NCBI GenBank assembly: GCA_963965975.1
Contig: OZ014416.1
Location: forward strand, 7,192,001 to 7,256,000
Length of the DNA: 64,000 bases
From: Xestospongia bergquistia
Taxonomy: Eukaryota > Porifera > Demospongiae > Haplosclerida > Petrosiidae
Direction: 5' to 3'
The notes under the pieces are model-generated. The model was not told the origin of the DNA and did no database searches. It was given only the letters and a program-made list of their open reading frames with translations. Shown here one piece after another: positions 8,642-63,310 of this stretch. Position numbers and translations under genes: made by a program. Each line of letters opens with the position of its first letter. Positions within the stretch are counted from its first letter, which is position 1.

Positions 8642-8683
<42 letters not shown>

Positions 8684-11600: not shown

Positions 11601-12543
11601 TAAAATTAAATAATGCAGTTTACACAATTTGATACTAGAACTTGGTTACAAAGCAAGGACCAAAAGCATAAAGTATTTCTTCTTTTTTGAATTGGATCTT
11701 TAACTTCTATTTTATATAGCCATTTATTAATATGATTGGAAAAGAAAACACAGTGATGCTAAAAATATCCTTTTTTGAATGTAGCAAAAAATAGTAATCT
11801 AATTTATGATATATATAATTATATTATACATAAATGTTGGACCTCCATGCTAATTTTAATGGCTTCAAATTTAATTTTTTATAAAGTAGTCTTTTACTGT
11901 TTTTACGTGCAGTTTATAGTAACAGTAATAGTTATGATATACTTTTATTATTGATGTAAGTAGCCTTGTAATATCACGTAAGCATTTATATAGTAGGTAT
12001 ACTATGCCTATGTAAAACATTAATAATGTGTTCTTACATGAAATAAAACTGATCAGTACTAAGATTGTTTTGGACCATGTGTGTATGTATATTTTTGTAT
12101 ATGTCCACTTTAACAAGTTTAATCTATTGTTATTATTTAAAAAATTATTTCATTTTAGTGGTAACAAACTCCACTTCATTTAGCATATTAGAGTAGTTAT
12201 GATAGCATTGTTAAGCTGTTATGTTGTTATATAATGACATTGTTCATAATAAACTGACACCCATTTAATATCTTAGATAATTTCTCTGTTTTTTGTGTCC
12301 CTGTCATTGGTCAGGTTTGGCATGATAACACAATAGCTATGATTATCTGTATTGATAGCTGTTATATTGACTATATAGTTTATTGTATGATAGTTCCTGT
12401 GCTTCTTATAAATGAGTAATATTTTCTCGTTTGTTTTCTAGGCTGGAAGAACACCAGCACATTGTGCAGCACAGGAGGGTCATGTTGATGTTCTAAAGTT
12501 ATTAATTGAAATGGGACAAGCTGACATAAATGTTACAGATAAA
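5278..12543 (+). CDS. Gene A ankyrin-repeat exons 1-8
   Basis: Exon 1 encodes the start (MATQLSKDEQEKI). Exons 2-8 are 93-117 bases, all phase 0 to phase 0, and each encodes about one ankyrin repeat. Two exon types recur: a D-N-[DN]-T-A-L-H-L-A-S-G-N-G type ending P-N-I-x-N-K (8729-8827, 10109-10207), and a S/T-P-A-H type ending V-N-A-T-D (9163-9264, 12442-12543). Compared with gene B, one exon of the first type, three middle exons and three exons of the second type are absent. Introns reach 2.2 kb; the larger ones (6726-8034, 10208-12441, 12544-14381) hold repeats and relics listed separately but no further intact exon. Confidence 0.85.
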
Positions 12544-22400: not shown

Positions 22401-22499
22401 CATCCAATTGAGTTACTAAAGAAGATTTGTGATTTTCTTTTAGAACAAACTGACAAGACTTTAAAGGACATTGGTACTAAAATGATGAGTCAACTATAG
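22401..22499 (+). pseudogene. Remainder of the gene A CARD-like exon after the stop
   Basis: After the TAA the same frame stays open for 32 codons and still matches gene B (FLLEQTDKTLKDIGTKMMSQ against FLLKQNNELKDIGTRMKSQ), ending at TAG 22497-22499 where gene B has its splice donor. The truncating stop therefore looks recent, or is read through or polymorphic. No counterparts of gene B's coiled coil, ZU5 or second Death domain were found downstream. Confidence 0.7.
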
Positions 22500-38260: not shown

Positions 38261-41200
38261 ATGGCGACTCAGCTTTCAAAAGATGAGCAGGAAAAGATTG
38301 TAAGTTTATTAATGAATATTATACTGTGTTAGAATAAAATTATAACATTATATTGTTAAGTATGTGTATATGTAGATGTAAGCACATTTTGCATTCAATC
38401 TATTACAGTATGTTTTGAAGTAACTATTAAAGTTTCCTCATAGATTTATTTCAGCAACTACTTACCATTATTGATTATTTTATAACTTGTAATATAAGTT
38501 ATTTGGCTATATTATAAAAGTACAAAATATATAAAATATAAATATATAAAATAATAATTATGTAAAATATGATAGGAAAGAGTACTTGGAAGCAGACTTC
38601 ACAGTTCCTAAATAAATCAAGTTGTTCATCAATTGATAGGTTCTTACAAGCTATAGTCTTTTAATTGGTTTTATCTGAGTATCTGTACTATTTATTCACA
38701 CTATTTACATTCATTATTCTACATGCTTATTACCACATGGTAAATACTATTAGTTATGTATTACATGCTGTTATTAACATATAAGCAGCAAGCAGAATGC
38801 ATGTGTATAGAGGTGTAGGCATGTCCTTTATTATTTAGGGTTTAGGGTTTAGGGTCTAGCTATGGATATGGTTAGCTATATTGTGTACATGCACTAATGG
38901 TTGAGGTTTGCAAAGTATACCGAGATACACATTTAACTTGCTACTTAGTTGTTACTAATGGCACACCATAGTTATGTAAACAATGGCTGTATCTACTATC
39001 ATTCTATTAACCCGTCTCTATTTGTTCCTGGTATATACTCACTTTAATACTTGAATAGTATCCACTTATTGCTATTACTAGAAGACAGCACATGTGAAAT
39101 AAAGAGTAGCAACAAACAAATGGAAAGAAGATCATTGAATTTTTTGATATTAGTTGATGTAGTCTTGTATTTGTAGTATAGTCTAATTGTCTCTGTTAGT
39201 TATATATATATAATATTAATTACATCATGTTCTTTTTATATAATTATTATCACTTTTTGTATTGTGTATTAGACCTGTCCTATAGTTTTATTAGTCTCAT
39301 ATAATACATGTAGTTGTGTATGATTTACTATTTTTAAATGTAATAACTTGTTTTATTATTATATAGGACAATGAACTTTGGGAGTCTGCTAGAAATGGAC
39401 ATTTAGAGAAAGCAAAACAAGCTCTTCAGAGAGGAGCAAACATTAAATGTCGTTTTCATGTAAGATCTTATTAATTTACCTTATAATCTACTGTTATTAT
39501 TTGTGTCTACTAAGTTATGTAATTAATTCAAAATATGTCAATTTAATGAGTATTAATTTTTTTATTCACACCTAAATATTAATTAACAACTTCAACACTT
39601 ACACAATTTATTAATTATTATTCTATTTGTTAAAGTTACTGAATTAGTATTCACAATTAATAACATACATGATCTTTACATGTAGCATTTTAATATTTTC
39701 TTATAATTAATTTAATTGAATAAAATCCATTATATTGTGTAATAGTAATGTCTTAATTAATCATACATGTCAATGTAAAGTAATAGCTTGTATTGTTGTA
39801 TACACAATATATGTAATTGGATTTTATTTCATATATTAATGCATCTTTGTTTATTATATAGATTCGTTATAGTGGAGCAAATTATGTAACACGAACAACA
39901 CCTTATACTATAGCTTACATTAATGGTCATAACACAATAGTAGAGTTCTTAGAAAATGCAGGTGCTACTCCTGATTATGTAAGTGTATACATGTATGTAA
40001 TTCAGGTCAATATTTTGTATATCTCAAGTGTTTGATTGTTACATTAATATTATGTACATGTACATACTTGTATTAAAATGTCTCCTATTAAATGTATTAT
40101 TATACAGATAATAATACATTTAATGGATAATTATAATGACCTTTACTAACATAATTGTTGTGTACTTATGTGTTTTTCTCCACACTACCTTTCTTTTAAT
40201 ACTGATTTCTATAGCTATCTAATTATCATTACATCATTAGTTTAAAGCATATCATGTAACACTAAGGTTCAATAGTGTTACAAATTGACATCATATAACA
40301 TTTACAAAGAAATTTGATGGATTGATTAAATTATTATATTACACAACAATCGTATCCAGATTTTTTTTACTCAAAGTGTCAGGATTGAAATTAATTATGA
40401 CAGTAATGCTATTAGCTTTGATGGAGTGGACAGTAAGCATGCTTTGTTACCTTATCTTACACATGATTAAAAGGCTAAATTGAACAATATCAATATAAGG
40501 AGCTGTTTATATAACAGACATAGAGTTCATTTAGATAGAGATGCAATGCCTTTCTATATTCAGAATAATGTGGAGCCATTTGTGTGATATAGAACAAATA
40601 TCCTTCTTCAAAGTTTATAAATATTTATAGAGTAACTACTAGAGAAGATGTTATAAAGTACATATATTTAAAAGCTGAGAAATTATGAGATTTGTTGTAC
40701 TTGTTACAATTACATTAAAGTTAACACATATTGCTAAGTGTCTTAACACTAGGCATTTAATCCTGCATGGATCAGTCTCTGTCTTAGGCTGACCTGTATT
40801 TCCGTCATGTTTAGACCACGGGAATGTTTATTCATGATTAATAAAATTTAATAGGCCTTATGCAATGATTACTGCCCACTCCACCTGGTAGTAAAATGGC
40901 TTAGTAAGTTGATTTAAGTATTTCATTTTTTACCAGGCTTATAGTTAATATTTGGTTTTCATGTTAATTGATTTGTAAGACTTTTTGAGAAGAAGACTGA
41001 ACTGGATTGATTATATCAATTACTAAATTGTCTTTGACTAGCTACCTATCTTAATCCTAGGATAGCACTACAAATCTTTCATCGTAAGATCTTTATCTAT
41101 TTTTTGAATATTAGTATTAAAGTTATGAAATTACTTCATATAAAGAAGTTTACTTTCATATGTGGGGGATATAGTTGTATAACACTGCACATAGTAATGA

Positions 41201-44200
41201 CTTTATACATAGTTAATGGAGCTTCTGGTTCATGAAATCTGGGCCATGTGGCATTAATGTACATGTCTATTTCTAGTATATACTGTAGTATTTATTGTGT
41301 ATAATCTGTGTTTACTTATTGTAATTTCATAGGATGAGATAATGTTGGCAGCTGCTGTAAGAGGACAAGTAGATATAGTGAAAGAAGCTATTGAAAAGGA
41401 AGCAAATGTAAATGATCAACATTCAGATAGAGTAAGTTATACTTTATTATAATAATTGATGTGTTCTTATAAAGAATAGCTAATCACTTTCACAATTATA
41501 AGTTTACTTATAAACAATATAATATTTTCATGAGAAATCAGATATACAAGTCTTAGTGTTTTGAAAAGTAATTTTTTTGATTATCATAAAATACTCAAAA
41601 CCTAAGGAGCTATACTGTTTATGTAACGACAATGTAATACAGGATTCCATATGATGATTATGAAAACATTAGGACATTGAAATAGCTTGTATAGATACTA
41701 CCAATTGAAAGCAAAGTATGATACTCAAAGTCACAGCGTAGTAGAAGAATCCTCTATGTAATTTATATTTTACTTGCATTAAAAAAAGAGCAAACAAAAA
41801 ATATAGTAATAAATATTGAATTAATGTCTTCTTATTATAATAACTGACTCAATTTAACATCTTGTTATGTCAGTTAAGATATCAAATGCCTCCAATAATG
41901 CTATTCTATTGACAGTCAATATATCAAAACTACAGGTCATCCTTACAGTCATACATTGTTAGCATTCTGAACTAGTTACACAATATCTAAATAAACTATC
42001 TTGTTGTATTACTATAATAGACAAGGAATTAAACTACTAAGTCTACATTGAACAAAGTCACTTCTCTACCTAGGCCTGTGTATACATATTTTAAACTGTT
42101 ACTAACTACATAGTATGATGTCAAACATTGCTGTGATATTATAGTGTAACATATTATCAGACTTAGTTATATTCTCTTGCTGTAGTTTTTTAAAAAATGC
42201 TGTAGTCAATTTTTTATTAACATTTATTATTGTTTTATTATTAGGACAATGATACAGCTTTGCATGTAGCCTCAGGTAATGGTCACACTGAGACAGTCAG
42301 ATTTCTCTTATTATCAAATGCAGATCCTAATGTTTCTAACAAGGTCAGTGTGTATTGTGTATAATTTATATTGTCTCTACTCCAAGCACATTTTTATAGT
42401 AATACATAGTTTGCACTGACTTATGACCCTAAAAAACGTAAATAAATAATTTTGTTATAAGATAATGAATTACATCATCAACACTTCTATTTAGTTATTT
42501 TCTGTGTTTTTGTGTCATTGGTCAGATTTGATGTGGTAATACAACAGCTATGATTATCTGAAATACGTGATAGTTGTTAGATTGACTATATAGTTTATTG
42601 TCTGATAGCTCATATGATTTTTATAAATAAATAACTTTTCCTCTTTTGTTTTCTAGTATGGACAATCACCAGCACATATTGCTATAAATGAGAGTCGTCC
42701 TGATGTTCTAAAGTTATTAATTGAAGTGGGACACATAGACGTAAATGCTACAGACAATGTAAGTCATATTATAGTTACTTATGAGTTAATCCCTTTGAAT
42801 TATGACATTCAATGTTGTCTTCAATTTTGATACCAACCCCTCACATGCCCAAACTGTTCACCACTTTAAATGTTTTGATAACACATTTTGACAAATGTTC
42901 AAAGAGCAATATTCCAAAATCATTCACAGTTGGAAAAATGCGAAAAACCAATTTAAGTGACAAAATCTGTACCATGGTAACAATTTAACTATGATCTGTA
43001 TTGATAATACAATCCATTGATAATAGAGGACATATTTTTAAATTTCCTGTTCTTACTTTGAGGATTGATATTTTCATTAATTGCTTTCAGCACCCTAATT
43101 TTTGGTTTTTACCTGCAACATGCCAAATTGTTACTAGCTTTATCAAGTTCTAATTCTAGATTTAGTTATTGACCATAAGATGTTGCTATCCCCACATCCA
43201 GAGTCCTCTCTTTTCTTGATCTACAGCAGCATTCTCTCCACAAACAACGTTATACTTGATGTTATGTTATCTTTTCCATTGAGAAACCCAGCCATTAGAG
43301 CAGGTTCATCCACTGTGGATTCAAACTTTTTAAATGTGAATGAACCAAACAAAAGCAGCATCAACCTCAACATAAGTAGGATCCTTCTGAAGCTTCTTTT
43401 TTTGCTTACAACTACATAATTTGCTTGTAGAAGACTTTTGTCCTTTAGAATTGAACCATTTACAAAGTTTGAATTTTTTGTATTGGCCCTATTGAAATGT
43501 GTTTGAATTCATGTATCATGTAAAGGATATTTGGACTGCACTGTATAATTAATTAACAAATTTTAAAGATTTTTCCTCCTGGGACACATAGCATGCAAGG
43601 CAGTCCTAAAATTTTTTTACCATATATATATATAAGAGGGTATGTTTGTTTTAGCAATTTATTGTATTGTTTTATAGGACAACAAATGAAATTAACCCAC
43701 ATACAGTAACTATGATGCACATAGAATATAATTACTTTATCACAACACTTTGAATTCAGTGTGACTAATCAAAGCTTCTGAGTTCTATTACTTGAGAAAA
43801 AATCTTTGACCAGTTCCATAGCTTCTGCCAATTCTCCAATCTTCAAAGTTAGTAATAATCCTATCCCTTACAACAACAAAATAGTGCAGACCACCAAAGG
43901 ACAATTTTTATGATTATATTCTTGTTACTATCTGAAAGAGATAAATAAACAAACTTGTTATAATAGAAAAGGAATGAGACATACTATATCTAGATACCTC
44001 AATAAACAATCTTGTTGTATTGCTGTAATAGACTACAAATTAGACCGAGTCTATCATCAACAAAGTCACTACTTCATCTGTGTACACATATATTTTTATA
44101 CTGTTACTAACTCTATAGTATGATGTCAAACATTGGTGCGATATCTTCACTATATACTGTAACTGATTATTACCAAACTTAGGTAGATTCTCTTACCATA

Positions 44201-47200: not shown

Positions 47201-50200
47201 TAATAGATATATATTGATATAATATTGATATAATTTTGTCTTTTGGTAAAGAATATTCATGATCAGTGAATGTCAGCCTACAAATGACATGAACATTTCT
47301 AACAAATCTTTAAAGTCTATTTAGTTTGCAAACTAAAATTACACGTGGTAGTCCTTAAAAGAATTCTGATATTCATGTAAAAATTTGATGTTTGTTATCT
47401 GTTAACAATTTTGCATGAGAATGACTACTCAAAGACAAAGTATTAAACAATTAACCTGAAAAAAGGAAATGTTTCTTACAATTGTAGCCTCTTCAACTCA
47501 TAATATTAAGACTTCTCCATTATTCTATGATAATTACTTCATAATAGAATAAACAACTACAATACAAATACAACCAAAAGCATCTTAGGACAATTTTTAT
47601 GATGTTTAAATTTAATATGTGGTCCATTTTATTATTGGAATATATTCTATAAAATTTGATGCTATTATAATTAACAATAAATACTTGTGTAATTCCTCTA
47701 GGATCAGCAAACAGCTCTACATTTCACATCAAAAGGGGGTTACTGTGATATCGTACAGCTACTGTTAAACTCAAGTACAGATCCCAATATTTGTGACAAG
47801 GTCAGTGTATATTGTTTGTAGAGATAAACATCACTACATCCAATCTCAAAATGTAGTAATTGTGGTAATGTAATACTACAGTTAAGCTAAGATGTGTAAA
47901 TCAAGTACAAACTTGATGCTATATGGATATTATTAAGAGAAGATGCAAGAAAATGGTTTAATAATACTATTAGTCATGATTCAAATATAAAGTATTACTC
48001 ATTCTTAGTTTTGGAACAGATGTCAAAATTACTATACTAATACTTGTTGTCCGTGGTTTGTTTTTTTTCACTTATCACGCTTTACATGCTAGACAGTTAT
48101 AAGGTGGTTTTGGACTATGTTTGTATGTTTTTATAAAATTTCTGTTTTTATACATTATTCTATAGATATATGTGAGTATTGGAAGTGGTGAATGAGATTT
48201 AACTGAATATAACAACTGCCAATGCCCTTAGTAACCAATGAATTTAATTTACTCTTCTTGTCAGTAATTCAGCTTCAAAGACAAGTGATAAGTAATTTCA
48301 CCTGAATGAGAAAATCCTTCAATGTAGCCTCTTTAACATTTAATATTAAGACTATTTAATTCCAATGTAAATCTCAATATTTGTGACAAATGTCAGATTA
48401 CTACATGTTAAATCAGTATTTAATAAATATAGAATGTTTTGGTGTGGCTGCTAGAATTTTCTACATCAAATTCTTATAATTTTGTGAGTAAAGGTTAACA
48501 AACATAGTCAGTGCTAGCTATCAGTAGGTGTGGCCTGTTATAATAGTACATATACTTGAAAGCATATTGGTATTCACAGAGGTATCATTAATATCCTATG
48601 CCACTTATATCAAATGTTAAAATGATTGTAGTAGTGACATCATCAGCATTATACTATTCTTTTATACTGGTACTAGATCCCCAAACCAAAACCTAAATAC
48701 TGAATGCTTGAACATAGGAAGAACAGCCAGTAGGTACCTCTGTTATTTTAATTTTTTTCATTACATATACTTCATAGTGATAATAGGAAGGATGGTATGG
48801 TACATACCTTGCAGATGTTGAATATGTTTATGTCATCCATGATTTTATGTTATTCCCTAGACATTAAACCTACGTAAACTCTGAATATATTAACAAGTGA
48901 TGGGCATTACGTACTACTTTAATAAACTTGTGATTGCGTTGAAAAGACACAGTTATTCATTAATTCCTATAGACAAGGAATAATTTCATAAAGTAATATA
49001 CCTTATCTGGGACTGTCCTTACCACACATCTAAATTACCTTTTTTTAATAATATAACTAATCCCTCCACTTAAGCATTAACTCTTAGCAGTGCTGATATA
49101 TTAAAAATATATTGTGCCAGCAGCTTGAAATTATTGAAAAATATTTTCTATGCTTGTAACTATAATTATAATTATAGTTATTGTTTTACTATGTTTACAA
49201 AGTTCACTTCATTCTATTGCAGCAATAACAAACAAATATATATATATATATATATAAATTCCATAATATACTTCAATAAAACATTCATTAACAAAAAATC
49301 CCCGTAGTGTACATCTTAGTCTACAAAGTACTCAAAGCTCAGAACAGAACATCTCAGTCATTATAATACTTTGAAACCCTATACCTTTAATTGTAGTCAT
49401 AAAGTTCAGTTTGAATATTTATATCAAGATAACAGTGTTGATAATAATTATACGTGTGTTAGATATGCTACATTTGTGACCTAAATGATCTAGTTTATCA
49501 TTAATAGCAAAATTTATAATAAACTGATATTCATTTAATATCTTAATCAGTTAGTCATTTTATGTCCCTGTCATTGGTCAGGTTTGGCATATAATACAAT
49601 AGTTATGATTCTCTGTATTAATGACTGTTATATTGACTATATAGTTTATTGAATGATAGTTACTATACTTATTGTAATTGAATTAATTTTCCTCTTTTGT
49701 TTTCTAGAAAGGACAAACACCAGCACATTATGCAGCACAGAAGGATCATGTTGATGTTCTAAAGTTATTAATTGAAGTGGGACAAGTCAATATAAATGCT
49801 ACAGATAAAGTAAGTCATATTATAGTTACTTGTGAATTATACATTTTTCAATATTGATTATGGTATTCTATAAACTTTTTACCCTGTTTCTTTGTTTGTA
49901 ATGTTTTTGTCATTGGTCAGATTTCATGTCATTACAATAAAATTAATAAATGTAAAATTGTATTGCAATCATTAATGACTGCTCTGTCAGTGACTGCCAT
50001 TCATAGATCTGTTTATATGGGATAAAACTGTACATAACTAAATTTAAAATGTAGAACCTTGTTGTTATGGGGTGTAGTCACAATCATTGATCAGATTTGT
50101 CATAGTAAAACAATAACTATAGTTAGTATAATTATTGTAAATTAATAATTTTTCCTCTATTCTTTCTAGAGTGGACAAACACCAGCACATCATGCAGTAA

Positions 50201-52169
50201 AGGAGGGTCATGTTGATGTTCTAAAGCTATTAATTGAAGTGGGACAAGTTGATGTAAATGCTACAGACAAAGTAAGTCATATTATAATTACTTATGAATT
50301 ATTCCTTTTAATGTAATCACTATTGATTATGGTATTTTATAAACATTTTAGTCTGTTTCTTTGTTTTTTTTTATGTCTCTGTCATTGGTTAGATTTGACA
50401 TCATTAGAACAAATGATGATTTGTATTGCATGGATTAATGACTTAGTTCTACTTGACTATGATCTATCAGTGACTGTAACTCATAGATCTGTTTACATGA
50501 GATAAAATTTGTACATACTGTTATGTAGTATAATCACAATCATTGGCCAGATTTGACATAGTAATACAATAACTATAGTTAGTGTGTTTTTGCCCTTAGT
50601 AACCAATGAATTTAATTTACTCTTCTTGTCAGTAATTCAGCTTCAAAGACAAAGTGATAAGTAATTTCACTTGAATGAGAAAATCCTTCAATGTAGCCTC
50701 TTTAACATTTAATATTAAGACTATTTAATTCCAATGCAAATCTCAATATTTGTGACAATGTCAGAGATTACTACATGTTACTAGATTTAAATCAGTATTT
50801 AATAAATATAGAATGTTATGGTGTGGCTGCTAGAATTTTCTACATCAAATTCTTAGAATTTTGTGAGTAAAGGTTAACAAACATAGCCAGTGCTAGCTAT
50901 CAATAGGTGTGGCCTGTTATAATAGTACATATAGCATATTGGTATTCACAGAGGTATCACTAATATGGTATGCCACTTATATCAAATGTTAAAATGATTG
51001 TAGTAGTGATATCATCAGCATTATACTATACTTTTATACTGGTACTAGATCCCCAAACCAAAACCTAAATACTGAATGCTTGAACATAGGAAGAACAGCC
51101 AGTAGGTACCTCTGTTATTTTAATTTTTTTCATTACATATACTTAAAGTAATATACCTTATCTGGGACTGTCCTTACCACACATCTAAATTACCTTTTTT
51201 TAATAATATAACTAATCCCTCCACTTAAGCATTAACTCTTAGCAGTGCTGATATATTTAAAATATATTGTGCCAGCAGCTTGAAATTATTGAAAAATATT
51301 TTCTATGCTTGTAACTATAATTATAATTATAGTTATTGTTTTACTATGTTTACAAAGTTCACTTCATTCTATTGCAGCAATAACAAACAAACATATATTA
51401 TATAAATTCCACAATATTCTTCAATGAAACATTCATTAACAGGCAATCCCTGTGGTGTACATCTTAGTCTACAAAGTACTCAAAGCTCAATACAATAGTT
51501 ATGATTGTCTGTATTAATGACTATTATATTGACTATATAGTTTATTGAATGATAGTTACTATACTTATTGTAATTGAATTAATTTTCTTCTCTAGAAAGG
51601 ACAAACACCAGCACATTATGCAGCACAGAAGAATCATATTGATGTTCTAAAGTTATTAATTGAAGTGGGACAAGTCAATATAAATGCTACAGATAAAGTA
51701 AGTCATATTATAGTTACTTGTGAATTATACATCTTAATATTATTTCAGTATTGATTATGATATTCTATAAACGTTTTAGCCTGTTTATTTGTTTGCAATG
51801 TTTTTGTCATTGGTCAGATTTCATGTCATAACAATAAAATTAATAAATGTAAAATTGTATTGCAATCATTAATGACTGCTCTGTCAGTGACTGCCATTCA
51901 TAGATCTGTTTATATGGGATAAAACTGTACATAACTAAATTTAAAATCTAGAACCTTATTGTTATGTGGTGTAGTCACAATCATTGATCTCATTTGACAT
52001 AGTAAAACAATAACTATAGTTAGTATAAGTATTGTAATTTAATAATTTTTCCTCTATCCTTTTCTAGAGTGGACAAACACCAGCACATCATGCAGCAGAG
52101 AAGGGTCATGTTGATATTCTAAAGCTATTAATTGAAAAGGGACAAGTTGATGTAAATGCTACAGACAGA
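38261..52169 (+). CDS. Gene B ankyrin-repeat exons 1-15
   Basis: Start exon (MATQLSKDEQEKI, identical to gene A) plus 14 exons of 93-117 bases, all phase 0-0, about one ankyrin repeat each. Exon types alternate: D-x-x-T-A-L-x-[LV]-A-S type, then [SK]-G-Q-T-P-A-H-[YH]-A type. Exons 12-15 are two copies of a two-exon unit. Uniform phase means any exon can be gained or lost without a frameshift, and the two paralogues show this. Introns carry duplicated non-coding sequence that travelled with the exons. Confidence 0.85.
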
Positions 52170-55100
52170 GTAAGTCCTGTTAAAATTCTTAAAATGAATT
52201 ATTCCTTTGATGCTCGACATTTTATGTTGTCTTCAATCATGGTATCAACCACTATCATACCCAGTCTCTCCATTAATTCAAGTATTTTATAAAATGTTTT
52301 AATTTGACAAAAATGTTCCAAGACCAATCATTGAAATTATTGAAAATTGGAAAAGTACTAAAGCAATTTAAATGACAAATCCCTCCCATAGGAACATTTT
52401 AACTATGATGCATGTTGATAGTACAACCTATTAGTAAGAGAGGATATACTTTTCCAGATTTCTTATTCTGATGTAAATGCTACTGACCTTGACTATTGAC
52501 ATTCTCTTTAGTTGCTTTCATCACCCTAAATTTCATTTTCACCAGCATTGTGTCAACATAGCCTTTTTTGCTATATTGATCGATGATAACATTCATAAAT
52601 GGATCCATTAATATATAGTCATGAATAATTAATAAGTTATCTGAATTTAGGGTTCTATGTGTCTTTTATTAACCCTTCCTTTCACATACACACACATAAA
52701 AAGTTCTCTATGCCCTTGTAATTTACCTGTCTGTAGTTTTGATAGTTTTTGAGCCTCTGTTATAATGTCTTCTACATTGATTTTCTTATAATTAGGCAAT
52801 AGCATTCTTAGGAACTTCATATAGTTTGAACAGATCACCAGCTTCATGTAGAAGTACATTGACTCGGGAACAAGCCATTTTGTTGATTTGTATATAAAAC
52901 CATAATTCACATGATCTACTGGACAAATAGTGAATTTGGTTATATCTGGTTCCTTCAAAAATATCCTACTGTGTAAAACCTTCAAAAATTAAGTAATTTG
53001 GATTGATGTTTTCATGGTATTACTCCATGTCTCTTCTATATGGCTCTCATTAGATATAAATAACAAATTGAATCATATGGATTAATGACTTAGTTCTATT
53101 GAAATATGTTCTGTCATCTGTTTATATGAGATAAAATTTACAAATAAACTAAATCTAAAGACTAGAACCTCATTCCTAAGTTATCATGGAATATAGAAAG
53201 TGTTAGAGCAATTGCTGAGTTAAGATATATTTGTTCTGATTGTTAAAGTGAAAGACTAAGTTATGAAATTGAATAAATGTAAAAAGAAGGAAGAAATTAA
53301 ATAGACCTTAGAAAATAACAAACTTTCAGTGTTTCACTTCTAGTGTCATTATGGATGGTTAGACAGATACTTTAATCTACAAAGGTAGTTATATTCAATA
53401 TTTCTTCTTCATATAAATACAGAACCCAAATACATCAATATTTAAAAACTAATGAATTTTTAAAATGGTAATTTTTAAAATCTTTTCTTTTATTCATTTT
53501 AGAATGGCAATAATCTACTACATTTAGCCTGTGCAAGTGGCAATGAAGAAACCATACACTACCTTTTACATAAAGTCCGACTAGATCCAGATTATCTAGT
53601 AGCTCTAAACAATCATCAACAAATGCCATTGGATCGTATTCGAACTTCTAGGAGAAATAAATTTCAATTACTAAAGTTGTTTCAACAATTCAAACAATGT
53701 CACAGAGACTACCTCACTGAATCATATGCTAAATTATTTCTCTGCGGAAAGACAGCAGCTGGTAAAAGCTCATTGGCTGCTGTTATCTCTTATCGTGCTG
53801 AAATGGGACCATATCATTACTATGATCCAGAAGAATGTGTTGAAGGTGTTGTATTACAAACCACTGGAATTGAGTACCACAATGTTCGTAGTGTAGAAAT
53901 AGGAAATGTTGTAATTTTTGATTTTGCCGGACATGCAGAATATTACAGTAGCCATGCTGCAGTACTGGAAACTCTCTTGTTGAGGTCACCAGCTGTCTTT
54001 GCGATTTTAAGCAACCTTACCAACGATGAGGAGACAATTAAGAAGGACCTGCTTTTCTGGTTTAACTTTGTTGAAAATGTTAGCATGAAGTTAATTAGCT
54101 CAAGTCAAGTACTTGTCCTTGGAAGTCACGTTGATGAGCTGCCTTGTGAAAAAGATTTCCAGCCTTTTGTAAATGAAGTAGCAGATCTGGCTTTTCGTTT
54201 TCAGAATTACAATGGATTTTTGCCAATAGACTGTCATAGACCAGGAGGAAAAGGTGTCAAAAAATTAATGAAGAAATTAAGAGAAAGCTGTGAAGCTGTT
54301 GTGAACAAAAATGATAAGATGAGCTACCACTGCCACTGTCTAAATTCTTATCTTCAACTGCTGGAGGTTGTTGCTATTAGCCTAGATGAGCTATGTTCCA
54401 AATTAATGGAACTAAATGAGCCTTGTCTTTTGACTGATCGATCAACAGTGTTAGAATTTTTGACCACTCTTGGAAGCAAGGGTCTCATTTTGTTTCTAGC
54501 TAACACATGGGTAATTATTGACAAAAATGCTCTCTTAAATGATGTAAATGGTGTCTTATTTAATAAACATATTGATCATGAGCGTAAACCAGTTGCCAGT
54601 AATACTGGTATAATGCCTGTCTCTACTCTAGCTAACCTTTTTCCTAAACACGACACAGATATGCTGATTCGTTTCTTAACAAGTCTACAATTTTGTCATC
54701 AAATGGACTCTTATGCTGTTTCTTGTATCACTAACAATATACCATCTGATGACTTCCTTATTAGTAAAGATGAGAAATTTTTATTTTTTCCTGCACTTAT
54801 TACAGCAGACAAGCCCACTTCAATCTTTGAAACAACAGATGGATTTGGTTGGTACTTATGGTGTCCGGAATCACATCAATTTCTCCCAATGCGTTTTCTC
54901 CATACTCTTCTTCATCACTTAGCTTATACTTGCTGTCCTCCTCTTCCTGAGGAAACTGATTATATTACTGATAATGCAACGATCCAAGAATTACACCGAG
55001 TCTGTACTATGTGGAAAAATGGTATTTATTGGAAAGAGGAGGAGAATAGTGTTGAAGTGATGGTTGAGGTTACTGAAGCCAACCGATGTGTTACAGTTCT

Positions 55101-58100
55101 TGTATCTCATAGCAGTTTAATAGAAAGTTATCGACTCCGTGCATCACTCATCAAAGAAGTTCTTAATCTTAAAAATGAATTATGTCCATGTACTTCAAAA
55201 CAGTTTATTATTCCACCTGGTAATGTTAAGGATGTCATGGAAAAGGAACAAAGAAATCGTTCTGTCTATGCTGTAAGAGAAGTTGCTAAAGGAGTACTAA
55301 TGAAAGGAACTGCTACTTCCACTAACAATGAAAGGGTTGTTGTCTCATTAGTAGTTGGTGAAAAGGAACCATACCTCTCTATTGCCCCTCTTGTGACCAA
55401 AGCTCTCTTTACTGACAGCAACAAAGATCTACCACTACCAGATCACTATGTCCAGCATATACATGAAGCATGTGGGGAGATCATGTTCCTCTATCCATCA
55501 TCAAATTTTACCCACCTCTCTGTAAGAGAACATCTCAACAAATATAGTATTTTTGCTGGACGTAGTCCTTTGGTAAGTTTACATTCACTTTCTCTTAACA
55601 GTGTGTCTATGAAATTGTTTTATCTTCTCTACATAGAGTATACCTTCTCCACCAATAAAAGATGAAGTAATACAAATATTATCAAAACATGTTCAGACAA
55701 GAACAACAAAAGGTTCTAATTATGTCAGTATTCTCTTGTATTGACTTAGTTATTATTACAGATTTTATTAACACTGTTACTAAACCTGACAAACAGATGT
55801 CATCATCTATTACATATAATGTTGGAGGTATGTCTACATGTCAAGAAAATGACATATTTCCAATAATTTAGTTTATTTATTAATAGTTTCCTTATTTTTA
55901 TATCTACTACATTTATATTTGATTACTTTCATTGTTATATATTGTTATATTACAGGTAGTAGTCAGGAGACAATGTTAACAAAGGATAGTTTAACTGATG
56001 AATTCAGTCATTTCCCTAAATTATGTATGTTAGACAATCTTATAATGACAGTTCTTTATCTTATTGTATTTACAGTTGAAAGACCTACAAGGTATGAAGT
56101 TTTAAACAAACTAGCTTCTATTGATGCTTCATGGCGTAGTATTGGAGAAGGTCTTCGAGTGAGTTATAATGTCATTAAAGGTTTGGATGAATCTAATAAG
56201 CCCAATCAAACACGACTCAGTGAAATTATTCAAAAGTGGTTGGACATGAATGGTCAAGGTGAAGGTGCTCCTGTCACATGGGTCTCCATTTTAGATGTCA
56301 TAAAGGGACCACTTGTTCAAAACAAATGTCTAGCTATGAAAATATATGAGAACTTGAAACGAAGTTCCATAGAAGAGAGTCAAAGTAAGTGGTCAAAATG
56401 ATCTTTAGTTGCTATAATTATATAGACTGCTTGTATTTTAATTCCATGGTCAGTAAACAATTATAATTGTCAGCTGTTACTTTAGGAGATATTCTGTTAT
56501 AGAATTGGCAAAATGTTGACTGTAAGATAATTAGAAAGTTTGACTGTAGTTAACGATAATAATTCCATGGTTACTAAGGAGGTAATTAATTTACTAATGT
56601 CAGCCATATTGGAGGTCACTTTAGCTGACATTTTGCCATGGCTTTGCAAGTATATTTAATTGTTATAGAACATGACAATAAAATGTTGACTATGAGATAA
56701 AAAGTGGTTCATTATATTATTGTACACATACACTTTAAAGAACAGATACCTCCAATAAAAATTGAATGTATTATAATATATCATTATCTTATTTTTTCTA
56801 ACTGTTCACATATTATATAGAGTTTAATGTACATGTTATATAACAATTATATTGAAAAGTAATGTAATTATTAATATATAATTGTTCTACTCAATATTCT
56901 ATAGAATGTGCTAATGAATCAAGTGGTCCTAATTCAACTGAAGGCTCTATTACTGACAACTTATCCATAAAACATCAGGTATGATTTATTCTCTTAAATA
57001 GTAGTTTATATTAATTGTAGTCATTAGCAAATTCAATTTGTAAAAGATATTAGGGGATATTCCTCTTGCCAGTGTGTAGCTATTAACATAATAGCTTCGG
57101 TAATGAGGATATATCAGGAGCTATTGCTGCTAATCAAATCATTTGTATTTTGTCAACTAAAATATTGTGCCCAGACACTCAATAGCTTAAGGCCATTAAG
57201 ATATCTGGTAATTCACAGGCAAGATGGCAGATCTCAGTGGTTTGCTTCAGATAATGCAAAAAGTAGTTTTTCGCATTAAACAATGGATGTCTGGGTCTGT
57301 GACTAAGTCAACTGTGTAACCACACCCATGAAATATCCTTTGTAGTTGTGGAGCATTCCTAAGCTTGACAAATATAGATTGATAGTTTCACTATGTAACA
57401 ATGATTACTATTAACAATTACATTGTATTTCCTTACCTCCAGTCTTATCAATAATATTATAGATAATAGTTACATCAATATTGTGTATTGTAAAACTAAA
57501 TTACCTCATATATTATCACTTATATCTTGTATCCAATAGCAACATTCTACTAACGAACTATCAAGTGAACACAAACCAGATACTCTCCCTAGTAATACTG
57601 CACAACAAGGTAATATAAGACATCTAAATAATAAACACTACATATAATGTATGTTATGATATTAATTGTGCTTATATAGAGTTATTTTATAGTCTATGTT
57701 GTTATAGTTGATATAAGTAGTTTATATATGTTGATAAATAGACTATTTAGAGTTGTATTTGATTACTGAGATCGTGAGAAATTAAGATATATTAATTAAC
57801 TACTTTTCTTCTAAATTGTTTACTACCTATTAATTTATTTTCTTTTCTTGTTGTATTGTATAGACACTATTGATCCATCAGAAATATTTCTGGATTATTT
57901 TGCTGATATTTGTGATGCCATTGAAGTTAAACCTCTTTCTATTGTTAATCGGCTCTTTACTGCTAGATTGATATCATTAAATTTAAAGAAAGTTGTAGAA
58001 AGTATGAGTGGTGATAATTATGACAGAGCAAATAAAGTAGTTAATGACCTACAACAACAGATTCAAGAAAAAGGAATCGAATTTTTAAAAGCTATTGGTG

Positions 58101-61100
58101 ACTTCCTTCTAAAGCAGAACAATGAGTTAAAAGACATTGGTACAAGAATGAAAAGTCAACTAGAAGGTGAAACATTTTATTATACAACACTATAATTATA
58201 CTAGATAATTACTATTTGTATAACTGAGTCTTTAATGATGTTATAATTGAGTAATTTACTGTATGTGACAAATTTGTTTACTTACTTCAAGCAAACTCCA
58301 CCTACTTAGTATCCAATCTTCTACATGCTTCAAAGCAAAAGTGCTATCAAAGCCAATAACATAAATTTAGGACTGCTTACCACATGACAGCATGTGTCAA
58401 CTCACAAATAACTAATAACTTGATGCCTTAGCCACATTAATGAGAAAGAATGTGCAAATCCCATTCTATAGTATTAGAAAAAATAATTTGTGATCGTATT
58501 TGAAAGTTTAACAATTGTGGTATGTGATTAACTATACTAGGAATACAATTAAACATTTCCTTATGTGGTCATTCTTAAAAAAATTGCTGGAAAGAAATAT
58601 TTGCGTCAATTATGTCAATATATGACCAGTTGGCACTTACAACATGCAGGTATATGCACAGGCAGCTTGTAGGCACAGCAGTCTATAATTGTTTCTTAGC
58701 AAAATGGCTTACAATAACAAATTCATTATGGTATATTTTTGCTTTCAATAAGTAGCTGTCTCACACACTATAAAGATTGTTTAGTAATTTTGATATGAAT
58801 AATCACAAAATGCGATAATATATATAAGCAATTAGTTTGGATACATGTGAAGTGCCTCTGATCATTTTTGTTTGGTCTGAGTATACAAATAATTCACACA
58901 ATTATCAAACACTCCCAAATAACAAGCAATTGTCATTATAGACAACATCCTTAACTTCAACAACTCAAATTATAGGATAAGGCTTGAAGATAGGGCTTTC
59001 TAATAAAAGTGGTAATGGATAATTCTAACTTAGTGTTGATTTACCTTCTCTCTGAATTATTTTTGATGGCACAGTACATGTATGTACTTTGTATGTTCAT
59101 GTGTGACAGTCCTTTATATTATATATTTGATAACTGCTATCAAATAGATTGATGAATACGATAAATCAATCACTTACTTTTTACACTTCATGCAAAGTAA
59201 TATGTTTGACTTCAAGTAATCTCATTAGTTAGATACTGGTAACTAGTTTTAAGTTACGTCATTCCTTTGAAGTACCTCATTGGTTTTCTTAGCTCCAATA
59301 AAGTTATCTGTTTAGTTATCTTGATAAATTGATTATAGTTTATAAATAGTTGGAAGCTATTGACTAAATTTGAAGATTGTTATCTCAATAAGTTATTGCC
59401 TATATACTATAGGTCATTGCCTTTATATATAGTGACTATTATTGAGACTATAATTTCTTTATAGTTTCCTTGACTCTAATCTATTATTAATTGATATTGT
59501 ACATTACATGAGCTGTGTAAATAGTCAAATCTGATCATGTTGCTAATGTTATTGTAATTGTAAACATTATCTTTTATCCTCTTAATTTGGTATATTATTA
59601 GTTACAGCAAAAATTATGAAAGAAAGTGAAACTAAAGATCTTTTGCTGGAAAATTTGCGACTAGTAAAGGAACAATCAACTCAACTCAAAGAAGGTATTA
59701 TTGGTAATCTTATTATGATATATGTTGTTGTTATTAAATAATCACTGTGACTATATGTATAATTATTATTACACAGGTCTATTTAAAGGAATGGTAATAG
59801 TAGGAAAGAACTATTCCAGTTTTAGTCCTGCTGAAGATCAACAGTTATCTGTTGATGAATGTGGGCTAAATATTTTAATACCTGCACAAGTAGTAGATGG
59901 TTCATATGAAATTACTGCTAATGGATTGTGGGGTGGGAAATTTGAACTTCCTGTAAATACCATACTTATCAGTGGAGTGTGTTATATATCAGTATCTAGT
60001 TCATCTCAGCTCAATAAACCAGTTACAATTCAACTAGAACATTGTGCTAATATTACAGATGAGAAACAAGCAGAATATCTCAGTTTTGTTGTTGCTAAAT
60101 CTGGTCCACCCTTCAAATTTGAATATCTACCAGGAGGATCATTTTGTCCTGGTTCACAATATGGCATTATACATCTCAAAGAATTTTCATTCCTAGCTAT
60201 AGTACTTTGTGCTGCAGTTGGTGGTGCCACGTTTGGTCTAGGAGGAGTAGCTCTAGGAGGTGCAGTTGGCAGTGCTATTGGATATCATTATGCAACTAGT
60301 AAGTATATACTGATCACTTATACACGTATGAGATAAAATGTTTAGAACATGCTGTTGAGTCAGTAATTGTATGTTTTGTGTTATAAAGTAAATCTTGAAT
60401 TAAAACCTAACATATTAATTATACGCAATACCTATTTATACAGATACAGAAGTTCCTAACTGCAATTATCGAGCTTATATCTTCTACAAGGTAGTGAATG
60501 GGGAAACATGGAACATGCGATTCACAGTTGTTCAAGATACCATATATTCTTATGTAATAATGTTCAATGCTTTAAATAATTATTTTAATCATTAATTTCT
60601 CTTATATAGGTAATTCTAAAACTAACGTCTAAGTTTGGTGACGAAGAAGACAGCTTTCGATTTTGTTTTGCTACTAATGTATCTTTATCACCAGAACAGG
60701 GTGATAGAGAAGAGAGTTCAAAGTTATTAGGATTCCCTGATGAAGCAGTTCATGGGTGGGAAATAACACCTCTACGTAGACCAGTAGTAGTAAGTGATAT
60801 GTATTTTGTGAGTGAGTGCATGTGTGGGAGGGGGGATGTGGTATTTATGATAAAAATATATGTAAGCTACATGTACTTTAAGTTGTCTATTTTTTACATT
60901 TTAATTGCTCTGATATAGATTAACAGGAAAGATGTAGATGACTTTAATCAGTCATTGAGTTTTAATCCTCCTAATATTCCTGTGAAAGTATCTGCTAATC
61001 CTAGAAGGAGTGATTTCAGAAATAATCTCATACATTCTATAGCAATTGAAGGTATTCAAGTTACTGAGAGTCAAACATCATCTGGCAATAGACCTCAAAT

Positions 61101-63310
61101 TGTGATTACTAGATCATTGGCCAGTAATTTACAAAGTGAGTTTTTGTTTACTACTTGTTTTTGTAGTATCCAAATTATAACCTTATTCTGAGCGTTCCTA
61201 ATAATGTCATTGACAATATTATTTTTAAGTTAAGTGCTCAAGCACAGGGCAAATTTATTATGGTTGTTATGATTCTCAATTCTAATCCAGAATACATATA
61301 TTATATATGTGTACCTTCAGCAAATTCAGTAATGTTTGTGTTATATAAGTTTTGTAGGTCATTATAATAACAAATATATATCTAAAGGACCATACTTATA
61401 ATATGCACAAACCACAATTAAAGAACTCATCAAGGCTTTAGAAACAAATTTAAAGCAAATGAATTTTATTCCAATTTATGAAATGTATGCCTGCATTCAG
61501 TAATACACTTATCAATGTTCAGGAATGCAATTATAAGTGTATGATGAAAAATATCAAGGAGTGTAGGATGAAGGGTGATAGACAATGAAAGATTCTAGTT
61601 TGTCAGATATGAGACAATTCAAATGTCCAGTCACAATAAGACAGAGGTCAAGAAAATGCAAACACAAGTACAGTTTTATTCAGTAGAGTAGATTTCCCCA
61701 TTAAAATAAAGGCATGTTCAACTTTTTAATAGGAGAGAGTTTCTTAACAACACCTTAGATCTAAGAATTTGACCAAGACTTATAATGTTCAACAGGACAC
61801 TTCTGTTTAAGCCATAACTATCTATAGTACTTACATGTGGCTCAAGACATAACTGTGTATACATATATATACCTATTTCATAATAATGATACGGATATAT
61901 AGTGTTAGAGAGTCATGTCCATGTACATTGTATGCTTACTTACATGCAAATGCATTTTGTTGTAGAAGTTCCTTTACAAAAGAAGAATAGGCCTGTATCT
62001 TGTATACTTTCCCAGACACAAGTATGTTGACCATATCTTGAGATTTAGAGATTATTTTCTTAGACTAACAAATTAAATTATTAGTAAACCTCCTTTTTAT
62101 AATAACAAGCTATTAACACACTTAATGAAGCCTATTTAACATTCTACCATTTTCATTGAAGAGGTGTGATATAGTAACTACTACAAATATGCATACATGA
62201 CTCTTATCTTACTTACCTTTCATTTTATAACAATCAGCTCAATTCTTACATATTTTAGAAAATGCAGTGCTCTAAAACATCAATAAGTATAGACAATTCT
62301 CTCAATAGACAACACCTGTCACAAAACACAGATTTTAGCTAACATTAAAGACCACAAATAATGCAATCTGATGACTAATTACATGTACATATAACAGTTG
62401 ACAGTTGGTTTATTAAAGCAATAATGATTTTTTTAAAATTTCTTTTAGGTATAATCATTTCTGTGACTACTTAATACTTGAGACTTTAGCAATTATATAA
62501 CTATATTAAATAAAATAAATCCAAAAGTACAAACTTCCTGTTCATAGCCACTGCCAACTATGAATATTGTGTTTGTATTTTAATTTGTATTTTGAATTAT
62601 TGCCAGTTTTTTAACTGTTTAACTTGTTACATCATCTATACATGTGTTAATCTATCAACAACTTAATTACACTTATTATATTGTTTAACAAAGAAAAAAT
62701 CATTTTCTTAAATCAATATTAAATTATATATTATTCCATTTCATATTAGGTAATATGGTTGAAGGAGGTGTACATGTATCTACTTTACCAGATGATCTCT
62801 TGGATCAACAACCTACAATTCAAGAAGTGACTAGATATGCTACAACTGCAAACTATAATCTGTTGGGTGTACAACTAGAGCTGAACCGGGTAGCACTAGC
62901 TGGATGTCGTGACTGTACCAGTATGTATCAGTTATGGATTGACGAAAAAGCAAGAGGAGCAACAAGGAGGAACTTATTAGTTGCTTTAAGAGCTATTAGG
63001 CAGAATAATGAAGCAAGAGAGTATGAAGAATATTTAGAAACGATTGTAAGTTACATTGTCCACACATTAAAGTATACATGTACATAGAGTGGACCCCTTA
63101 GCTAAGAATAGCCCCATATTATTACATGACATTGATCTATATTAAACTTTGATACTATAACTTGGTTAATTTTAGTTGCAATATTAGTGTACTGGCTGTT
63201 AGTTTTTATATTGTTTTTATAATATTGGCTTATTGACTATGTAAACAACTTATGACCACAAACAAATTAATTTTCTAATTTTGTAGGTGGAAAATAATGT
63301 GAGTGTTTAA
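38261..63310 (+). CDS. Gene B: ANK-Roc-COR-Death-CARD-ZU5-UPA-Death protein
   Basis: Spliced model of 30 coding exons, 1977 codons plus TAA, all phases consistent: 38261-38299, 39367-39459, 39862-39978, 41333-41431, 42245-42343, 42657-42758, 44260-44358, 44952-45050, 46521-46622, 46763-46861, 47702-47800, 49708-49809, 50170-50271, 51596-51697, 52068-52169, 53503-55572, 55637-55712, 55762-55827, 55956-56024, 56076-56384, 56905-56978, 57540-57609, 57864-58166, 59602-59694, 59777-60298, 60444-60553, 60610-60789, 60919-61135, 62750-63045, 63287-63310. Domains by residue: ankyrin 14-520, Roc about 560-720, COR-like about 740-1150, Death 1246-1348, CARD-like 1397-1497, coiled coil 1498-1528, ZU5-like 1529-1666, glycine zipper 1667-1702, UPA-like about 1703-1800, Death 1872-1970. 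The front half is DAPK1-like, the tail PIDD/UNC5-like. Probably a cytosolic signalling scaffold (inference). I know no characterised protein with this order. Confidence 0.85.
38834..38854 (+). repeat. (TTTAGGG)3 telomere-like run
   Basis: Three perfect heptamers in the first intron of gene B; the same place in gene A (5613-5626) has two. The unit differs from the usual animal TTAGGG. It is probably a simple repeat that varies in copy number. Confidence 0.8.
48225..52170. repeat. Tandem duplication of a two-exon ankyrin unit
   Basis: About 48,225-50,590 and 50,590-52,170 are copies: the intron word cccttagtaaccaatgaatt recurs at 48,233 and 50,594, and ccttatctgggactgtcctt at about 49,000 and 51,160. 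Exon pair 49708-49809/50170-50271 equals 51596-51697/52068-52169 with few changes. The second copy has lost several hundred bases of intron. Introns are still easily aligned, so the duplication is recent and gene A lacks it. Confidence 0.9.
52647..52985 (-). pseudogene. Unrecognised minus-strand coding relic in an intron
   Basis: A 112-codon open frame (for example FLKEPDITKFTICPVDHVNY, WLVPESMYFYMKLVICSN) on the strand opposite gene B, with a possible donor after KLSKLQT. The matching stretch in gene A (about 12,830-13,160) has the same sequence but broken frames. Similar minus-strand fragments occur in other introns (10,640-11,480 and 43,180-43,440, with words such as GFLNGKD). It looks like an old gene or DNA-transposon ORF copied along with the ankyrin units. 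Family unknown. Confidence 0.4.
53503..55572 (+). CDS. Gene B giant exon: ankyrin repeat, Roc GTPase, COR-like
   Basis: 690 codons in one exon, colinear with gene A 14382-16460. Opens with a last ankyrin repeat (NGNNLLHLACASGNEETIHY). Roc GTPase: P-loop GKTAAGKS (residues 567-574), G3 DFAGH (625-629) followed by AEYYSSHAAVLE, G4 GSHVD (692-696), matching the T/S-H-x-D form of Roc domains. Nucleotide binding should be intact. The COR-like part contains LLNDVNGVLF, NLFP and FFPALITADKP, then MWKNGIYWKEEENSVEVMVE. Roc-COR modules act as GTP-dependent dimerising switches (LRRK2, DAPK1, MFHAS1). Acceptor cattttag, donor TTTG|gtaagt. Confidence 0.88.
55637..56024 (+). CDS. Gene B connector exons before the Death domain
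   Basis: Exon 55637-55712 (phase 0-1) corresponds to gene A 16619-16706. Exons 55762-55827 and 55956-56024 are symmetric phase 1-1 inserts with no gene A counterpart and polar sequence (VTKPDKQMSSS; LTDEFSHFPK). They could be skipped as cassettes. The first two introns are only 49 and 127 bases. Confidence 0.7.
56076..56384 (+). CDS. Gene B first Death domain
   Basis: 103 codons. Family features: helix 2 with W-R-S-I-G-E-G-L-R-V, a central L-S-E-I-I-Q-K-W-L-D-M, then P-V-T-W-V-S-I-L-D-V-I, and a last helix KCLAMKIYENLKR. Clearly paralogous to gene A 16801-17073 (both end V/L-Q-N-K-C). Phase 1-1, so the whole domain is a movable exon. Confidence 0.82.
56905..57609 (+). CDS. Gene B linker exons shared with gene A
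   Basis: Exons 56905-56978 and 57540-57609 match gene A 19841-19914 and 20386-20455 closely (STNELSSEHK and DTLPSNT in both). Gene A has ten more linker exons that gene B lacks. The introns also align (GC-richer words near 57,240 and 20,060). Polar, serine/threonine-rich, probably disordered. Confidence 0.75.
57864..58166 (+). CDS. Gene B CARD-like domain
   Basis: One phase 1-1 exon, 101 codons, all-helical. Pattern: PSEIFLDYFADICDAIEV, then NRLFTARLIS, a break, YDRANKVVNDLQQQI, then EFLKAIGDFLLKQNNELKDI. The order LxxxL, Y-[DE]-[KR]-A, hydrophobic heptads and a final L-x-x-I-x-D-x-L fits the CARD-like helical domains of invertebrate NLR and Death-superfamily proteins. It could be another Death-fold subfamily. 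Complete here, truncated in gene A. Confidence 0.6.
59602..59694 (+). CDS. Gene B coiled-coil exon
   Basis: 31 codons, phase 1-1, highly charged with leucines in heptad spacing (ETKDLLLENLRLVKEQSTQL). Probably a short coiled coil for self-association. The intron before it (58167-59601, 1.4 kb) holds nothing I recognise. Confidence 0.65.
59777..60298 (+). CDS. Gene B ZU5-like domain plus glycine zipper
   Basis: 174 codons, phase 1-1. ZU5-like β-sheet pattern: D-E-C-G-L-N-I-L-I-P-A early (family G-V-x-L-x-I-P-x-G), later KPVTIQLEHCANI (family K-P-V-x-L-x-L-x-H-C), then LPGGSFCPGSQYGIIHLKEF. The last ZU5 strand reads E-F-S at residues 1664-1666, the site where PIDD and NLRP1-type ZU5-UPA modules cut themselves between F and S. 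Directly after it comes a hydrophobic stretch with G at 1685, 1689, 1693 and 1697, a perfect GxxxGxxxGxxxG zipper that could insert in membranes or oligomerise. That stretch is not part of known ZU5 domains. Confidence 0.72.
60444..61135 (+). CDS. Gene B UPA-like region, exons 26-28
   Basis: Exons 60444-60553 (phase 1-0), 60610-60789 (0-0) and 60919-61135 (0-1). Sequence such as NYRAYIFYKVVNGETWNMRF, then FRFCFATNVSL and HGWEITPLRRPVV suggests β-strands in the position of the UPA domain, which follows ZU5 in UNC5, PIDD and ankyrins. The third exon is polar (NPPNIPVKVSANPRRSDF). The assignment rests mainly on position. The first intron is 145 bases and the second is only 56. The intron after exon 28 (61136-62749, 1.6 kb) holds nothing I recognise. 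Confidence 0.55.
62750..63310 (+). CDS. Gene B second Death domain and C-terminus
   Basis: Exon 62750-63045 encodes a Death domain: helices LLDQQPTIQEVTRYATTANY, then LLGVQLELN, then MYQLWIDEKARGATRRNLLV with the central W and the R-x-N-L-L-x-A-L-R helix typical of the family. The last exon 63287-63310 adds VENNVSV and TAA. ZU5-UPA-Death at a C-terminus is the arrangement of UNC5, PIDD and ankyrins. Gene A lacks it. Confidence 0.75.

Follow-up and report, generated by a model that had tools for sequence, protein, structure and literature searches.

In DAPK1, a protein kinase is followed by ankyrin (ANK) repeats, a Roc-COR unit and a Death domain. Vertebrate ankyrins, whose genes are few, have ANK, ZU5, UPA and Death domains in that order. 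A third point of reference is the triplet His-Phe-Ser, which is used by PIDD and Nup98.

According to the parts of two reports drawn on here, the UPA domain is named for UNC5, PIDD and ankyrins, and NLRP1 and CARD8 self-cleave at a Phe-Ser bond that ends their ZU5 domain, a reaction that requires a His (PMC8081665, PMC3210808). In rat NLRP1 the catalytic pair is H942-S969, with the His 27 residues before the Ser (PMC8081665). In brown algae, the main passages of a 2024 study describe an expanded ROCO family with one repeat per exon and shuffling of these exons, and its authors propose that the proteins are immune receptors (PMC11378527). Among sponges, Amphimedon has 357 TRADD-N proteins, mostly with Death-like domains and often with ankyrin repeats; as far as the passages of that report go, mosaic Death families in a sponge are thus known in kind (PMC8195603). 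In the titles and text passages of the literature considered, no description of Roc-COR together with ZU5 was found.

The window examined here, a 64,000-nucleotide stretch of the genome of the demosponge Xestospongia bergquistia, contains such a combination. Gene B (38261..63310; all features of the window given below lie on the + strand) encodes, in this order, about 15 ankyrin repeats, Roc-COR, a Death domain, a helical domain, a coil, ZU5, a segment of 168 residues and a second Death domain. A sequence-only reading of the same DNA had proposed one mosaic ANK-GTPase-Death-ZU5 gene. That observation is confirmed; the interpretation attached to it is partly supported.

The exons of gene B were refined by hand, using the reading frame and GT-AG borders. 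The resulting 30 exons form one continuous frame from the ATG at 38261 to the stop at 63310, with no internal stops and no frameshifts; its 1977 residues are the length originally proposed. The single frame therefore stands, while the count of 30 in-phase junctions becomes 29, from 30 exons. The first exon (38261..38299), which carries the start MATQLSKDEQEKI, has an exact letter-for-letter counterpart in gene A (5278-5316). Gene A (window positions 5278-17117, +) is a paralogue of gene B with the same first exon, ankyrin repeats, Roc-COR and Death. The first three exons of the two genes are 100, 78 and 72% identical, although their Roc-COR exons share only 44.6% identity (over 707 aa), which makes the start of gene B credible. 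The last coding exon, including the stop, is placed at 63287..63310 by the splice model.

For a dynamic-programming gene model, the Roc exons of two paralogues served as training data, the ATG was fixed and the end was forced past 60000. The resulting path ran from this ATG to the same stop, with 29 exons and a length of 2047 aa. It erred in adding a spurious exon (43138-43375) and in missing the small conserved exon E2. When the end was left free, the best path still included the last Death exon and stopped at 63310 or, depending on the intron penalty, at 63087, where the donor of the Death exon is read through. The best path ending before 59602 scored 48-71 units lower, in a model that has no two-gene state.

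The presence of ankyrin repeats is beyond doubt. The array spans 39367..52169 and comprises 14 exons (exons 2-15) of about one repeat each, all of which start and end in phase 0 (Pfam Ank_2, 8e-92). Within it, two ankyrin exons are present twice through a direct duplication (48223..52191; 48223-50294 versus 50591-52191, in blocks of 93-95% DNA identity), which by eye also contains remains of other ankyrin exons, bearing stops, near 48.3 and 50.7 kb.

The next exon (53503..55572) encodes the last ankyrin repeat, the Roc GTPase and the COR region, with Pfam E-values of 0.00067 for Ank, 0.004 for Roc and 0.051 for COR-B, the latter under the cut-off. The Roc match of gene B is weak (17.0 bits against a cut-off of 27); that of gene A, at 30.3 bits, is above it. 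Against PDB profiles, the gene B Roc gave six matches, all to LRRK2 Roc, the best with E 0.011. By eye, a P-loop (GKTAAGKS) and a DxxG motif (DFAGH) can be read. The small exon E2 (55637..55712) follows and exits in phase 1.

Single sequences score poorly, and for this reason sets of paralogous exons from the same genome were run against Pfam besides the single window copies. The alignment sets were hand-picked and comprised 12 of 24 helical, nine of 23 Death 1, six of seven Death 2 and nine of 13 ZU5 rows. Death domain 1 (56076..56384, phase 1-1) was matched in six of nine paralogues, at best with 9.2e-5 (window copy 0.0039). Death domain 2 (62750..63045), which is entered in phase 1, was matched in all six, at best with 2.3e-5; the window copy alone gave 0.016 and 15.8 bits, under the Pfam cut-off of 22.6. 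Two Death domains in one chain, as originally proposed, are hence supported on paralogue sets. The window's own ZU5 and Death copies lie just or well under the Pfam cut-offs. Against PDB profiles, the Death 1, helical and Death 2 sets gave no convincing match; the NRADD Death domain came last among 14 matches of the Death 2 set (E 1.4).

The domain between Death 1 and the coil (57864..58166, phase 1-1) had been called CARD-like, which would have given the chain three Death-fold adaptors. It is better described as an unclassified helical domain, leaving two. The Pfam CARD profile matched one of 12 members, at E 0.051, and none of 19 matches of a genome-wide CARD search falls on a listed helical-exon copy (by eye). 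A single-sequence AF2 model has three helices, the last one of 50 residues (pLDDT 83.7), where a CARD fold has six, and a Foldseek search of this model against the PDB found no fold match at E<=0.001. A subthreshold CARD match at C11:6406834 lies about 10 kb past the end of a run of helical-exon copies; its similarity to the helical set is weak (hhalign P 0.012, probability 3.7%). The CARD label is accordingly set aside as unsupported.

The tail beyond the helical domain begins with a coil exon (59602..59694, phase 1-1), whose acceptor is possibly 6 bases later, and continues with the ZU5 exon (59777..60298, phase 1-1), which ends in a hydrophobic stretch resembling a glycine zipper. ZU5 modules of this type also occur in inflammasome and axon-guidance proteins. 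Pfam ZU5 was matched by nine of nine paralogous sequences (best 4.1e-7); the window copy, at 6.5e-4 and 20.4 bits, narrowly misses the cut-off of 21. No PDB profile was matched by the ZU5 set, phmmer with the spliced gene B tail returned chance matches only, and AF2 on the ZU5 exon alone gave an unusable model (pLDDT 31.9).

Three exons occupy the position of UPA (60444-60553, 60610-60789 and 60919-61135; span 60444..61135). Their spliced segment of 168 residues matched no Pfam family at E<=1. A genome-wide UPA search had no match anywhere, its controls included, and says little. Of the proposed ZU5-UPA-Death tail, ZU5 and Death are thus retained and the UPA label is dropped as unsupported; taking all profile searches of the gene together, ZU5 and Death hold on paralogue sets, CARD and UPA do not, and Roc and COR match weakly. 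While the segment at the UPA position is unclassified, gene B is not proven to be a ZU5-UPA-Death protein.

At the end of the ZU5 exon, a Phe-Ser site and the zipper-like segment together occupy 60186..60295 (limits approximate; from sequence and hydropathy). Phe-Ser is present in eight of ten distinct ZU5 sequences, the window included, and is Phe-Cys in two from C7. At -27 from the Ser or Cys, all ten distinct sequences have Pro or Leu and none has His, nor is there a His between -8 and -42 in the ten sequences compared; a His at about -49 may be the counterpart of the structural His-252 of CARD8. The suggestion of a possibly self-cleaving module is therefore upheld for the mostly conserved Phe-Ser and fails for the catalytic His position of NLRP1 and CARD8. 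The His-Phe-Ser of PIDD and Nup98 means that this FIIND test leaves cleavage possible.

Directly after Phe-Ser follows FLAIVLCAAVGGATFGLGGVALGGAVGSAIGYHYAT, which has no charged residue among 32, a hydropathy of 1.84, 53% Gly/Ala/Ser and four GxxxG pairs. The stretch recurs in the inspected ZU5 copies of C2, C4, C5, C6 and C13, more weakly in one C4 type, and is absent from the C7 and C3 types inspected; 46 of 51 ZU5 matches at E<=1e-40 reach it (past query residue 160). That this segment might act on membranes is a guess from its composition.

Like DAPK1, gene B has the order ANK-Roc-COR-Death, with Roc and COR weak. It differs in having no kinase match (Pfam, residues 1-1348) and in its additional helical domain, coil, ZU5 and second Death domain. 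A frame on C10 scores better than gene B for both Death (54.6 bits) and COR-B (19.1 bits, cut-off 27), and a Roc lies about 2 kb from it on the same strand; gene B has no significant alignment with this COR-Death frame (best E 0.34). The description of a DAPK1-like front is accordingly apt for the domain order and too close otherwise. An identity with DAPK1 was rejected, given the missing kinase match and the lack of significant similarity to the C10 frame.

With the C-terminal parts of PIDD1, UNC5 and ankyrins, gene B shares a ZU5, a further segment and a Death domain, and with PIDD and CARD8 also Phe-Ser at the corresponding position. Unlike these tails, it has a single ZU5, no UPA match, a zipper-like insert and Roc-COR in the same chain. 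The FIIND of NLRP1 and CARD8 is similar in its Phe-Ser at the ZU5 end and a Death-fold domain downstream, whereas the gene B family has no His at -27 (10/10) and ends in Death rather than CARD; the His test excludes gene B as a FIIND protein. Brown-algal ROCO proteins resemble it as an expanded family with one repeat per exon and exon shuffling, but their repeats are LRRs instead of ankyrin, and the passages of that study used here do not mention Death or ZU5 (PMC11378527). Sponge Death/TRADD-N and NACHT-ZU5 mosaics are likewise lineage-specific Death-fold mosaics of demosponges, partly with ankyrin repeats; Roc-COR joined to ZU5 is not mentioned in the corresponding passages (PMC8195603, PMC12909245).

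Considered as a whole, gene B probably represents a single gene of the ROCO type, a member of a large family, that couples an ankyrin sensor and a Roc-COR switch to a Death output held by ZU5 and that has diversified by exon swapping in two zones; we put this reading somewhat above even. Weighing against it are the low Pfam scores of Roc and COR in gene B itself, the unsupported CARD and UPA labels and, as set out below, the modest constraint, the stops in part of the Roc matches and the reduced module set of the distant locus L040. Most plausibly it would work like a ROCO receptor with a Death output, and its most likely role is that of an innate-immune or cell-death receptor-scaffold. Gene structure, domain order, loss of cassettes and a block of raised identity are observed directly, whereas sensing, GTP switching, assembly and the immune role are what we infer. 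In the proposed mechanism, the ankyrin array would read a ligand or partner, and Roc-COR would serve as a dimer switch gated by nucleotide. The Death domains might then nucleate Death-fold signalling assemblies, with an immune or cell-death output. Until its release, the last Death domain would be kept inactive by ZU5 and the segment after it; release would come through an opening like that of UNC5 or through Phe-Ser cleavage like that of PIDD and CARD8.

An unlikely elaboration would make the family a GTPase-gated, exon-shuffled receptor class with a membrane-active zipper. Activation would open the chain or cleave it at Phe-Ser, giving a fragment with the zipper at its start and Death at its end, which could enter a membrane and at the same time attract a death complex. 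Recognition, carried by the phase-0 ankyrin exons, and output, carried by the phase-1 cassettes, would evolve independently through exon exchange among dozens of loci.

Of the competing explanations, the most durable, itself improbable, is that gene B is not an immune or death protein and instead a structural scaffold, linking membrane and cytoskeleton as ankyrins do. The order of its domains does resemble the ANK-ZU5-UPA-Death of vertebrate ankyrins; its Roc-COR unit, its second Death domain and its many clustered, reshuffled copies are unlike them.

The search for these copies covered the window's own genome (146 Mb, 21 contigs). For the Roc-COR exon, 62 of 249 candidates were scored; at least 58 are near full length and four are broken. 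A stop is present in 24 of the 58, and some of these stops may be intronic, the query having extended 30 codons beyond the end of the exon. The ZU5 exon is found at no fewer than 150 places listed of 155 matches, and Death 2 and the helical exon at a minimum of 150 places each. Downstream of Roc, E2 and the helical exon are present with their order kept in all 20 best-ranking loci, and Death 1 in 16 of them (the window included). Three further Roc loci were inspected: L035 has all modules; L041 has Death 1 plus the helical exon; and at L040, a more distant locus on C1, Death 1 was found, with helical exon, ZU5 and Death 2 absent within 7 kb. Gene B is one member of a large multigene family of ROCO type and no isolated fusion. 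As side observations, a helical-exon copy near gene A (22200-22496) contains one TAA, and L018 (C6:7720207-7730206) has two Roc-to-helical-exon tails, head to tail, within 10 kb.

The genome comparison also bears on the view that two neighbours have been merged, one with ANK-Roc-COR-Death and an end at about 58.2 kb, the other with ZU5-Death and a start within the coil exon. The proximity counts used all 62 scored Roc places, 150 of 155 ZU5 places and 46 of 150 Death 2 places, the last being the 43 best and three on C4 picked for their nearness to ZU5. A ZU5 lies downstream of Roc, on the same strand and within 15 kb, at eight of 62 Roc places (6.1-10 kb between starts), which represent four distinct loci: the window, C6:8.1 Mb, C13 (four copies) and C7 (two). 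In other orientations there is one case upstream, and there are four with the two modules on opposite strands; these four are inverted, broken copies of the C13 Roc next to ZU5s already counted. Death 2 follows ZU5 within 15 kb at 16 of 150 ZU5 places, a count that is not unbiased, as the Death 2 places were selected.

On C13 (L035) the full order Roc-E2-Death 1-helical-coil-ZU5-UPA position-Death 2 recurs. At C6:8.09-8.10 Mb (L017, L010, L037) the same tail is found, with the coil-ZU5 block doubled before Death 2. On C7 the same front leads to a different ZU5 (34% identical) and, at the end, to a different, Death 1-like domain. The C13 arrangement occurs as four near-identical sets of Roc, helical exon, ZU5 and Death 2 about 0.2 Mb apart (3.41, 3.63, 3.82 and 4.03 Mb), and every set is followed by an inverted, broken copy of Roc; this reflects repeated segmental duplication or an assembly effect. 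The C7 loci (L028, L030) are a second type of Roc-to-ZU5 gene, in which the ZU5 ends in His-His-Phe-Cys and the zipper is absent.

Four paralogues (L020, L022, L024, L026) have kept Death 2 and lack ZU5; Death 1 was also not found in them. Relative to the window, 59636 is followed directly by 62582 in L020 and L026, and L022 has the junction letters of L020. L024 jumps from about 59787 to 62516, and since the ZU5 acceptor is still there together with the initial 7-11 bases of its exon, the direction of change in L024 was loss and not later gain. The Death 2 exon is open in all four (dN/dS versus the window 0.31-0.64), and joining the helical exon straight to Death 2 preserves the frame, both borders being phase 1. 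Such an open, in-phase Death 2 would not be expected of a separate downstream gene deprived of its start or most of its body.

The two-gene view can point to an in-frame Met that all seven copies inspected have early in the coil exon, and to nine ZU5-to-Death 2 pairs on C4 with no Roc nearby among the 62 scored places; for one of these pairs (L036), Roc was not found in the 6 kb upstream. Against it, the coil exon still has its splice acceptor and is in phase 1; C13, C6 and, with another ZU5, C7 show the same order and spacing; and where deletions have removed the supposed start or the ZU5, Death 2 is still open and in phase with the Roc gene. On these grounds it was rejected as very unlikely, and the proposal of one chain uniting ANK-Roc-COR-Death with a ZU5-to-Death tail is well supported at the genome level, as judged by the C13 and C6 tails, the C7 analogue and the four deletion paralogues.

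For the favoured reading, that of a single, reshuffled receptor gene, exon phase provides a basis for module exchange. Phase 1 is found at both borders of the Death 1, helical, coil and ZU5 exons and of the block from ZU5 to the UPA position; set against the phase 0 of the ankyrin exons, this defines two shuffling zones, and the family would diversify by swapping ankyrin exons in one and adaptor cassettes in the other. These two zones and the zipper-like stretch are additions to the original sequence-only reading. Between the window and C13, 200-base bins from 58800 to 60800, introns included, are 90-98% identical, as against 72-89% (one 93%) in flanking alignable bins; 56400-57000 aligns poorly. 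The dS of the ZU5 exon is 0.037, compared with 0.34 for the helical exon and 0.49 for Death 1. Raised identity and low dS together point to gene conversion or cassette exchange.

Constraint on the tail and Roc end of gene B appears modest, with dN/dS estimated on short exons by a simple counting method. Values are 0.55-1.64 for the Roc end, 1.07 for ZU5 versus C13, 1.27 for Death 1 versus L016, 2.15 for the third UPA-position exon versus L017 (few changes) and 1.17 for Death 2 of L022 versus L035; they are 0.35-0.42 for ZU5 against more distant copies and 0.36-0.89 for the helical exon. That gene B is a decaying or chimeric, non-functional product of tandem duplication, as the stops in many relatives and several dN/dS near or above 1 might suggest, is highly improbable given its 30 exons free of stops and frameshifts and the lower of these ratios (ZU5 against distant copies, helical exon).

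If the favoured reading is true, an early-branching animal would have a Roc-COR switch and, further along the same chain, a PIDD/CARD8-like output module. A large repertoire of immune-like character would then have arisen from ROCO proteins in an animal genome, as a parallel to brown algae. The family looks like a large, fast-reshuffling set of early-animal immune receptors. Its natural deletion series, with and without ZU5 and with and without Death 1, provides ready comparisons of each module's role.

Related modules were also noticed elsewhere in the genome. At L039 (C1:5998800-6004800), Kelch repeats (5.5e-17) are followed by a Death domain (7.8e-10), with a ZU5 just downstream at C1:6004753; this Kelch-Death unit may serve the same ZU5 cassette as an alternative front, and by eye a similar order is present on C5. 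On C8, four Death-domain frames of 261 aa (6621565, 6626117, 6630669 and 6635221, +) follow one another at an exact spacing of 4552 bases.
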